A DNA stretch of 64,000 nt, taken from the NCBI RefSeq assembly GCF_001623075.1, contig NZ_LMCF01000016.1, positions 62,001-126,000 on the forward strand, written 5' to 3'. Positions 51,136-52,704 of the stretch are shown piece by piece; within the stretch, counting starts at the first letter, position 1; every line of letters begins with the position of its first letter. The position numbers and the translations under genes were made by a program. Origin of the DNA: Pseudovibrio sp. Ad37 (GTDB taxonomy: Bacteria > Pseudomonadota > Alphaproteobacteria > Rhizobiales > Stappiaceae). The notes under the pieces were generated by a model. The model ran no database searches. It was not told the DNA's origin and worked only from the letters and a program-made list of their open reading frames with translations.

Positions 51136-51182
51136 ACACAACAGGTGAGGGGAGTTCCTACCCCCTCACCTGTTGTGTTTTG
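51136..51182. terminator. Terminator after HAD gene (convergent pair)
   Basis: Arms 51136-51152 and 51162-51178 form 17 perfect base pairs (core CAACAGGTGAGGGG) around nine bases, with TTTT at the 3' end. The gene on the other strand ends at 51213, so it may serve both directions. Confidence 0.88.
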
Positions 51183-51212: not shown

Positions 51213-51641
51213 TCAAAAAGCTCTGCTGATCAAAGCGCCTATTGAGAGGCGAGGCAGTTCAATGCTTTGGAAGAAATCAGGATTGATGTATGGGGCGGAA
51301 ACAAACAAAAGTGGACCTATGATTGCGATAACTAGCAGCCAGTACAGCAGATAGACCCACCATCTGTTATAGGACTTGACCTCAACCTCCTCCTCAAAAT
51401 ACGCAATGCGTGCCGCATCCACCGTGAAAAAGATGGAAAGCAGTGCTTGTAGTACAGAAAGAAGAGTTGCTTGCGTTTGAAAATCGATAAACCTCAAGGG
51501 CGGAAGGCATATCATGGTAATCGAGAGGATCAGGAAAGCCACATACAATGCCAGCCGCTTGAGACGCCCTACATATATGTAGCCACTTGCAAAATAAAAT
51601 TGTAGCAGAAGCGCAATCCACCACTTACGTTTTACCGTCAT
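51213..51641 (-). CDS. Small membrane protein of unknown function
   Basis: A 142-residue protein with about four transmembrane helices: KWWIALLLQFYFASGYIYVG, LALYVAFLILSITMI, LSVLQALLSIFFTVDAARIAY and WWVYLLYWLLVIAIIGPLLF. The opening resembles the TM segments that precede some signal peptidase I domains (RKPWxAxLLSxxxxGxGxxYxG then YNRWWVY), but the catalytic Ser/Lys region is absent, so it may be a shortened relative. That comparison is from memory. I do not recognise a family. Confidence 0.6.
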   Translation of the reverse strand: MTVKRKWWIALLLQFYFASGYIYVGRLKRLALYVAFLILSITMICLPPLRFIDFQTQATLLSVLQALLSIFFTVDAARIAYFEEEVEVKSYNRWWVYLLYWLLVIAIIGPLLFVSAPYINPDFFQSIELPRLSIGALISRAF

Positions 51642-51818
51642 TCCATAACTTCTAATTGCTGATGTCGAGTTACCTCAATCAGTAATGGAAAGTAGGTTCA
51701 ATAGAAACCCTAATCTCTCAGCTTTGCTTGTTCTAGGTGACGTCAGAGAATTTAGGTGCTGTATTGCCAAGAAACTTATCCCCCTCTTCGAAAATGCCCT
51801 TACGCTTGATCTCGTGCC

Positions 51819-52066
51819 CACGCATTCGGGCAGGAGTGGACCGTCCATTCCGCGGCGTGGGTGGGGTTGGGCTGCTGGTACGAGGTAACGTATCGTGTCA
51901 GGAGGTCCGGTGAAGCGCCATACCCTATTGAGACCACAGTGGTATTAGGGAGTTTGGGGTCGTTCCGGAGGGCGTCCGGTGGTGACAGGAAACTGTCAAA
52001 GGTACGGCAACGTGCCAGTGACACGGGAACGTGTCATTCACGTCTGTCCGAGAGGGAGCCCGCGTG
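51819..52066 (+). ncRNA. Candidate structured RNA with tandem GNRA-capped hairpins
   Basis: A closing stem pairs 51819-51822 with 52063-52066 and 51827-51831 with 52058-52062 (nine pairs, four-base bulge). Inside lie consecutive hairpins: 51833-51851 (8 pairs, loop CCG), 51877-51894 (6 pairs, loop AGGTAA), 51923-51950 (CCCTA/TAGGG plus ACCA/TGGT), 51965-51979 (CCGGA/TCCGG), 51983-51998 (6 pairs, loop GAAA), 52001-52016 (6 pairs, loop GCAA), 52017-52038 (9 pairs, loop GGAA) and 52044-52057 (short, loop GAGA). The four GNRA loops exist only when read on +; on - they would be TTTC, TTGC, TTCC and TCTC. It does not show the conserved cores of RNase P RNA, tmRNA, SRP RNA or a group II intron domain V. 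Promoter not evident. Pairings were found by eye. Confidence 0.65.
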
Positions 52067-52085
52067 TTCATGATAAAAGGCCCGG

Positions 52086-52154
52086 GCGAGGCGAACAGCC
52101 AATGCCGAAGAAACATATCTAACAAGTAGCGCAGGCAAAGCCTGTTCGCCTTGC
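52086..52154. repeat. 13-base-pair inverted repeat next to the RNA candidate
   Basis: GCGAGGCGAACAG (52086-52098) pairs with CTGTTCGCCTTGC (52142-52154), 12 Watson-Crick pairs and one G-U, around 43 bases. A competing local hairpin CAGGC-AAA-GCCTG (52132-52144) shares part of the right arm, so two alternative folds are possible. CCCGT-TTA-ACGGG (52159-52171) follows. Confidence 0.55.
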
Positions 52155-52186
52155 TCCACCCGTTTAACGGGATCCTCAAACACAAA

Positions 52187-52210
52187 CACCGCAGGGATGA
52201 TCCAGCGGTG
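52187..52210 (-). terminator. Possible terminator of the DUF4265 gene
   Basis: CACCGC (52187-52192) pairs with GCGGTG (52205-52210). Read on -, it lies 36 bases past the stop of the DUF4265 gene and is followed by a U-rich TTTGTGTTTG. Confidence 0.4.
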
Positions 52211-52245
52211 ATATTCGTGCTTGTCAGTTTAAGCAGGCTGAAATG

Positions 52246-52704
52246 CTAGACCTTATGCCCGCAGTGGCCTTCTTCAAAAGCCCAGATGCCAAGGCCTTCG
52301 CCTTCTTCAAGAATGGAGTAGGCGACGTGGATGTCGACATTTGCCGGAATATCTACGCTGAACAGCGGTGGATCAGCGTCAATGTCCTCGCATGTACAAC
52401 CAAGCTTTTCCAGCTTGGACCACTGCTTGGAGAATTCTTCCGGCTGTGTCGTCTCTTCCACCATGATCCGGTAGGTGGAATGACCCGATGCTTTATCGAC
52501 CCTGTCAAAAACAAGCTGCCCTTTTTGCCGGTTGGCAAGCAGCTCATCACCATTGGCAACGCCGCAAGCAAAGAAGGGTGTGTTTTCAAGCTTGTAGCGA
52601 TTGCCACCGAGCGAGCGTACCCACACAGTTTCACTGTCAATGCCGTGCCAGTCATGTGGATCCAGCTGGAAAACAAGTTTGTGCAGATTGCTATTCTTAT
52701 TCAT
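52246..52704 (-). CDS. DUF4265 domain-containing protein
   Basis: A 152-residue soluble protein matching the DUF4265 pattern: HKLVFQLDPHDWHGIDSETVWVRSLGGNRYKLENTPFFACGVANGDEL is the conserved N-terminal beta domain, and the second half carries an alpha/beta segment ending FEEGHCGHKV. Function unknown; members are scattered and often next to accessory genes. It is monocistronic, with the hairpin-rich region beyond its 3' end. Confidence 0.82.
   Translation of the reverse strand: MNKNSNLHKLVFQLDPHDWHGIDSETVWVRSLGGNRYKLENTPFFACGVANGDELLANRQKGQLVFDRVDKASGHSTYRIMVEETTQPEEFSKQWSKLEKLGCTCEDIDADPPLFSVDIPANVDIHVAYSILEEGEGLGIWAFEEGHCGHKV

Follow-up and report, generated by a model that had tools for sequence, protein, structure and literature searches.

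A probable family of large structured RNA genes dispersed in the genomes of Stappiaceae

Known RNA families and the element of strain Ad37

Large structured bacterial RNAs are few, and several of them are without a known role. RNase P RNA, tmRNA, SRP RNA, 6S RNA, introns, HEARO, OLE, ROOL and GOLLD are all families in Rfam. HEARO/IscB omega RNA and the TnpB-derived RNAs are structured and occur in dispersed copies, some of them without an ORF, and ORF-less group II introns are multi-copy structured RNA elements. OLE, ROOL and GOLLD have been described as large RNAs with an intricate fold and a poorly understood function, ROOL having 659 nt and the GOLLDs over 800 nt (PMC12286853). The multicopy trans-encoded sRNA families of the Rhizobiales are described as having several paralogous copies per genome (PMC3927594).

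The element described here was found in a stretch of 64,000 nt from Pseudovibrio sp. Ad37 (GCF_001623075.1, NZ_LMCF01000016.1, positions 62,001-126,000, forward strand), hereafter called the window. Pseudovibrio are culturable marine bacteria, placed by the NCBI taxonomy in the Stappiaceae, Hyphomicrobiales. Like OLE, ROOL and GOLLD the element is large, with an intricate fold and a poorly understood role, although it is shorter than the 659-nt ROOL and the over-800-nt GOLLDs (PMC12286853). Unlike these RNAs it has no Rfam match and no match in phage records, plasmids or (by exact pattern) viral contigs, and it is found in many copies between ordinary genes. It resembles the ornate RNAs in kind; membership was assessed through Rfam only, where none of them was matched.

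Being a structured RNA in dispersed copies, the element is also similar to the HEARO, omega and TnpB-derived RNAs. An identity as HEARO/OMEGA or TnpB guide RNA was not supported, as there was no Rfam match, no nuclease domain in 40 flanking ORFs and no TnpB-type protein in any of 16 genomes of the genus, which were searched with PF07282. It shares its multi-copy, structured nature with the ORF-less group II introns, and this identity was not supported either, since Rfam, the sole test for domain V, gave no match and RT matches are unrelated to copy number. The multicopy sRNAs of the Rhizobiales are much smaller than the element. They likewise occur in paralogous copies and belong to the same order, and the main text of their description makes no mention of Pseudovibrio, Labrenzia or Stappia (PMC3927594). 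We class the element as a new family, unusual in that its copies are dispersed and exchangeable.

The preliminary description, made from the sequence of the window, had proposed an undescribed structured RNA on the + strand, to be checked against Rfam and in homologues. Its main claim is supported by both the Rfam negatives and the compensatory changes through which pairs are kept in homologues. No Rfam 15 family reached its gathering threshold in the window, the best match within 51600-52300 being no better than E 3. Permissive scans of 51600-52300 and of three other copies (L123, L009, L069) gave far sub-threshold matches only (E 0.39 or worse), and three weak sub-threshold hits in 12 homologue loci all fell outside the element. 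ARAGORN predicted 0 tRNA or tmRNA genes in the window. No description of the element was found in titles and the openings of abstracts, a search that covered few subscription papers.

Extent, parts and subfamilies of the element

The region first noticed, 51819-52066, is too small to be the unit; it is the middle part of an intergenic element with sharp ends, 51771-52224. A BLAST search of the strain's own genome using 51640-52245 as a query gave 28 matches, which resolve into 23 places, and a covariance model gave 25 matches. Profile HMMs found both the 5' and the 3' domain at 22 of the 23 places, one of these (L023) having a clear internal deletion. The remaining place (L019) has the 3' domain only; its contig stops about 130 bases upstream, and that stretch is unlike the element. 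In subfamilies A, B and C (see below) most of the first 15 bases of the element have a conservation of 1-2 bits each, whereas outside it is mostly below 0.3 bits per base, reaching up to 1.0 in the last two bases upstream. The element starts with (A)AAACTTATYCCCCT and ends near GTGCTTG, the length from the 5' motif to the end being 410 to 520 nt in 63 copies. The ends of the window copy do not form an inverted repeat. The features of the window copy are:

51771..52224, + strand: whole element, delimited by conservation edges in subfamilies A, B, C and homologues; one of 23-25 copies in the genome
51771..51785, + strand: conserved 5' motif (A)AAACTTATYCCCCT, promoter-like; motif in 105 of 123 copies
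51816..51823, + strand: 5' strand of P1, pairing with 51855-51862; two-sided changes at 8 of 8 pairs, 95.7% of cells paired in 59 sequences
51834..51850, + strand: P1a hairpin (51834-51839 with 51845-51850), apical GGACCGUCC-like; 98.6% of cells paired, two-sided changes at 4 of 6 pairs
51855..51862, + strand: 3' strand of P1, partner of 51816-51823
51869..51908, + strand: P2 (51869-51873 with 51904-51908) enclosing P3 (about 51878-51883 with 51893-51898); 95.2% and 90.7% of cells paired
51910..52071, + strand: central domain, closed by 51910-51918 with 52062-52071; highly variable between subfamilies
51983..52038, + strand: GNRA hairpin array, three units in the window copy; compensatory changes in helices 8-11
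52084..52156, + strand: 3' domain stem (52084-52098 with 52142-52156) with conserved internal TGCCGAAGA; 99.4% of cells paired in subfamily A
52187..52210, + strand: 3' terminal hairpin CACYGC...GCGGTG, terminator-like with a weak T run; 100% of cells paired (helix 15)

The 5' motif is followed by a spacer that varies even among copies about 90% alike elsewhere, and in most copies by a TATNCT-like hexamer (near 51799-51804 in the window copy). The best TATACT-like hexamer lies 20-21 nt after CTTATC in 93 of the 105 copies, the hexamer having been selected from spacings of 15-21. Read this way, the gap exceeds the spacing of a sigma-70 pair, and a consensus scan found no sigma-70 promoter on the + strand of the window copy. 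A consensus scan for intrinsic terminators likewise called none on this strand of the window copy, the 3' hairpin included. All of 59 sequences carry UAACG without variation in the loop of P3 (51886-51890), and every base of GCCGAAGA in the 3' domain has a conservation of 90% or more (alignment A1, 55 sequences).

Altogether 123 distinct copies were compared, with 24, 43 and 26 in the Pseudovibrio subfamilies A, B and C, which have the core in common and differ in the centre. The GNRA array is a feature of subfamily A, with 2 to 4 units per copy; the mean number of strict GNRA hairpins in a copy is 1.79 for A, 0.58 for B and 0 for C. The hairpins are thus a variable insert of one subfamily and not part of the core. 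The run of GNRA loops had been taken to suggest a compact tertiary fold, as in ribozymes or large ornate RNAs; being a variable-number insert, it provides no argument by itself for a ribozyme. The loops GAAA (51989-51992), GCAA (52007-52010) and GGAA (52026-52029) do cap stems of at least five pairs on the + strand, whereas the fourth loop listed, GAGA, is present on a stem of only about 3 pairs and was not counted. With the strict definition (stem of at least 5 pairs) there are three such hairpins on the + strand and none on the - strand, the restriction to one strand being as had been claimed, and their number is beyond chance, 2000 dinucleotide shuffles averaging 0.05 and never reaching 3.

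The reported richness in GC was also confirmed (0.56-0.62 in most of the core, compared with 0.40-0.51 on its immediate left and 0.50-0.55 on its immediate right), and so was the lack of coding, a frame open over more than 90% of the length being found in only 2 of 93 copies of subfamilies A, B and C. Such a frame is present in 7 of 9 copies of the GC-rich Roseibium-like set, but on differing strands and in differing frames, and protein coding is rejected here too, as none of the four pairs compared shows a codon-phase bias. No conserved ORF is kept inside the element.

Second 5' domains in tandem were observed in L059 (129-264 and 563-704, about 430 bp apart) of genome G014, and L145 also has a second 5' domain, so tandem copies seem to exist. 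In the Roseibium-group genome G072 (L197, contig C2) two 3' domain matches in the same direction lie near 1385776 and 1388690, 2.9 kb apart.

Fold, covariation and strand

For 51807-52075, none of 200 shuffles folds as well as the + strand (z -3.77), while for the - strand z is -1.63 and 12 of 200 shuffles are equally good. For the whole element in the window copy both strands fold well (z -4.39 on +, -5.56 on -, 30 shuffles), and energy alone therefore cannot fix the strand. The z value was clearly lower on the + strand in 12 of 14 copies tested, including L069, in which stability is no better than that of shuffles on either strand. The closing stem originally drawn, 51819-51831 with 52058-52066, proved to be wrong: 51816-51823 pairs locally with 51855-51862 instead.

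The single-sequence fold of the window copy, with added 3' helices, was applied to 24 homologues. In these 95.9% of the cells are paired against 38.6-46.4% in slid controls, and two-sided changes occur at 18 pairs against 4-6, the structure including one pair with a one-base loop (helix 14) that is unpaired in 13 of the 24. The shuffle control is weaker (185 of 500 shuffles reach the observed count of pair types, and on average they already have 94.7% of cells paired), since a large part of this subfamily is invariant. Within subfamily A, helices 4 and 7 of the central domain are paired in 99.5% and 99.3% of cells, and helices 10 and 11 of the GNRA array in only 85.0% and 79.4%.

A broader set, with 59 sequences of the 5' core from Pseudovibrio and other genera, gave 95.3% paired cells against 39-52% in controls and 192 two-sided cells against 18-57, and none of 500 shuffles reached any of the five observed values. 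This structure is a favoured one, as 24 of the 38 fold pairs were kept after inspection; the 14 excluded pairs include the outer six of the window fold and the lower pairs of P1a, and several fail across subfamilies. RNAalifold structures within subfamilies have 14, 46, 37 and 29 pairs with two-sided changes and 93.6-98.6% of cells paired, scored on the same alignments that produced them. Compensatory changes beyond controls, as in a conserved structured ncRNA gene, are thus present.

Departures at mostly Watson-Crick pairs are G-U in 131 and A-C in 18 cases in alignment A3 (one of its 60 prepared rows, L134, left out), and 128 and 24 in alignment A2. This excess of G-U over A-C points to the + strand as the RNA.

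Between orthologous copies pairing is kept in 272 of 401 one-sided and 111 of 130 two-sided changes, whereas a random single change would keep it in 26% (G-C, A-U) to 52% (G-U) of cases. Of 38 comparisons named, two have members outside the aligned sets and at most 36 are counted; they are not independent of each other, and structure and counts come from the same alignments. These counts may be taken as supportive of selection on resident copies but not as decisive, because exchange between copies and the use of a single alignment for structure and count could inflate pairing.

Genomic places, distribution and interpretation

Using DNA similarity, the element was found in 14 of 16 Pseudovibrio genomes and in 1 of 25 other genomes searched. 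R1, a covariance model of the 3' domain built on 55 sequences, matched 35 of 87 genomes of the family; about 31 of these are convincing by sequence, in four of seven genera. Matches in three genomes (G065, G068 and G019; L141-L143) were dropped as chance-like, being without the CCGAAGA core or most of the domain, and G075 is doubtful. Relatives are found in Roseibium/Labrenzia, and two further Stappiaceae genera (G017, G041) have 3' domain matches, the 3' domain alone being supported there as the 5' profile falls short of E 0.001. With 36 candidates scored per genome, the R1 counts in Pseudovibrio are lower bounds: 0 (G001, G013), at least 1-2 (G012, G011, G007), at least 10-11 (G004, G008, G010) and at least 22-30 in eight of the 16 genomes. 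As no copy was detected in two of the 16 genomes, the genus can do without the RNA.

Outside the family, where 397 genomes of the order and 385 of the class were sampled, there were two hits only (E 1.6e-4 and 5.7e-4), both chance-like, the former falling within a long ORF; with 7 or 8 candidates scored per genome and stricter filters, weak relatives could escape these searches. A further scan, of records with names, returned at least 107 stretches. Among the 80 that are named, 63 from Pseudovibrio and 4 from Roseibium/Labrenzia match the element HMMs and 13 scattered others match neither, and of the 27 not named 22 match and 5 do not. Phage records and plasmids (BLAST) and viral contigs (exact pattern only) gave no match, and an origin from phage, plasmid or virus was rejected on these searches. 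As far as searched, the family thus appears confined to Stappiaceae and amplified in Pseudovibrio.

The neighbours of the copies in the strain's own genome are all ordinary and differ between places: Pfam families were assigned to 30 of the 40 flanking ORFs that were scanned, including DUF4265, CreA, aldo-keto reductase, chorismate synthase, MutS, TsaD, DapB and Cu/Zn superoxide dismutase, with GNAT acetyltransferases adjoining two copies. No transposase or recombinase was found among the Pfam families of these 40 ORFs. Comparing 23 stretches of G002 (25 matches) and 21 of G009 (28 matches), and accepting as orthologous a matching flank of at least 170 nt on at least one side, we found an orthologous copy at no fewer than 20 of the 23 places in G002 and 16 of the 23 in G009, counts that are lower bounds. 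The subfamily is the same at 19 of 20 such places in G002 and 12 of 16 in G009. In both comparisons the deleted copy L023, which is labelled apart, accounts for one mismatch, and the true subfamily switches (L007, L017, L018) are all in G009. In 4 of 20 (G002) and 8 of 16 (G009) cases a paralogue resembles the copy more closely than the orthologue does. Stable orthologous places, together with subfamily switches and closer paralogues, therefore suggest that the addresses are stable and the contents exchangeable.

At the locus of the window copy, G006 has a subfamily C copy directly after the HAD gene, and G004 is empty, with 17 nt between two stop codons. The L168 locus is occupied in G000, G002, G015, G005 and G009 and empty in G003, G014, G006 and G004. 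No clean target-site duplication was obtained at the empty sites, because their flanks have diverged.

With its conserved fold and about 25 copies the element looks like a new RNA gene family of about 370 to 480 bases, probably a working one. We hold, with moderate confidence, that it is a self-contained gene for a large structured ncRNA of a dispersed Stappiaceae family, most likely acting in trans, and we infer its transcription and role. The RNA would be about 420 nt long in the window copy (51806-52224, + strand), starting a few bases past the promoter-like motif and ending after the 3' hairpin. Its constant core (P1/P1a, P2/P3 with UAACG, and the 3' domain with CCGAAGA) would be the working part, and the central hairpins a tolerant, copy-variable insert. 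The folded RNA may act in trans as a scaffold or decoy for a protein or as an RNA assembly, the many copies would raise the RNA dose, and the copies may be partly homogenised or exchanged by recombination. Several findings speak against this reading: the gap of 20-21 nt before the hexamer and the lack of a consensus promoter or + strand terminator call in the window copy, the two genus genomes in which no copy was detected, and L069, whose fold is no better than that of its shuffles.

The main rival to such a gene is a non-autonomous mobile element, whose RNA structure would serve its own copying via a helper enzyme encoded elsewhere and bring no benefit to the cell. Sharp ends, 22-30 copies in eight of 16 genus genomes, restriction to one family, empty sites at the window locus (G004) and the L168 locus (G003, G014, G006, G004), and differing subfamilies at the same locus are all in its favour, and empty and filled sites as well as inter-locus exchange also fit a selfish element. 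However, the places have long been occupied stably (at least 20 of 23 common to G002, at least 16 of 23 to G009), and among the 22 places in the strain's own genome that have both domains a clear internal deletion is seen in one (L023). The copies keep no ORF, and the window copy has no terminal inverted repeat. Nor do RT-family or TnpB-type proteins follow the element. PF00078, the RT family, occurs in six of the 16 genomes without relation to copy number, being absent from G015, G006, G009 and G005, each with 24-30 copies, and most frequent (20 matches) in G004, which has 10; spread driven by RT or by TnpB, the latter with matches in 0 of 16 genomes, is not supported. We regard the mobile element as unlikely, though a serious competitor.

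The remaining explanations are less probable still. An intergenic termination or insulation module between convergent genes would suit the 3' hairpin and the neighbours, the downstream one being on the opposite strand at 14 of 23 places and within 22 nt at 10 of these 14 (by an ORF heuristic, the neighbour of the window copy corrected to the DUF4265 gene). A downstream ORF on the same strand at 9 of 23 places, the weak T run without a + strand terminator call, and a 400 nt covarying fold with invariant loops, far beyond the needs of a terminator, make this quite improbable. A Csr/Rsm-type sponge, in which repeated hairpins titrate a GGA-binding regulator, would explain the hairpin array of variable number and the multi-copy dosage, and ANGGA is somewhat above shuffles in subfamily A (3.12 vs 1.75, sd 1.24). 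Yet ANGGA lies within one sd in subfamilies B and C and the Roseibium-like set, GGA does so in four sets, which is not what marks a member of that class, and by the strict count a copy of B has 0.58 GNRA hairpins on average and C has none; we give the sponge very little weight. Anti-Shine-Dalgarno CCUCC motifs were considered too and rejected, their enrichment not exceeding one sd. The least probable reading, DNA palindromes for protein binding or chance inverted repeats without an RNA, would account for the good fold of the - strand of the whole window copy, and is already contradicted by the G-U to A-C asymmetry (131:18 and 128:24), GNRA loops on one strand only and compensatory changes in nested helices.

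Returning to the trans-acting RNA gene, a bolder version of it can be offered tentatively: a new class of large trans-acting RNA machine, without kinship to curated RNA families, that has a constant core for catalysis or binding and a centre particular to each copy. A genome would keep as many as about 30 such loci, their contents exchangeable because recombination carries variants from one fixed chromosomal address to another. If true, this would be the bacterial counterpart of RNA gene families under concerted evolution, differing from them in its diversified inserts. Up to 30 copies of an RNA of about 370-480 nt offer abundant natural variants for structure work, and why one genome keeps so many copies at fixed addresses is a question for genetics. 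The range from 0 to 30 copies among species of the genus makes the choice between a cellular machine and a selfish element testable.

Several minor observations concern the surroundings of the copies. Many of the 20 RT matches in G004 (L345 and others) have identical scores and probably stem from a recent, separate expansion of elements that carry an RT. In the window a 142-aa membrane-like ORF on the - strand (51213-51641), without a Pfam hit, separates the HAD gene from the element; as only about 150 bp lie between these two in G002, this part of the window seems to be a local insertion or replacement. Just past the HAD gene, a strong hairpin at 51137-51180 (ACAACAGGTGAGGGG...CCCCTCACCTGTTGTG) followed by a T-rich stretch resembles a terminator for that gene. 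A second dispersed repeat, TGTCATCCC...GGGATGACA, is located just upstream of the element in L168 (580-700), and words resembling it also precede L021 and L022, so that repeats seem to accumulate at these intergenic sites.
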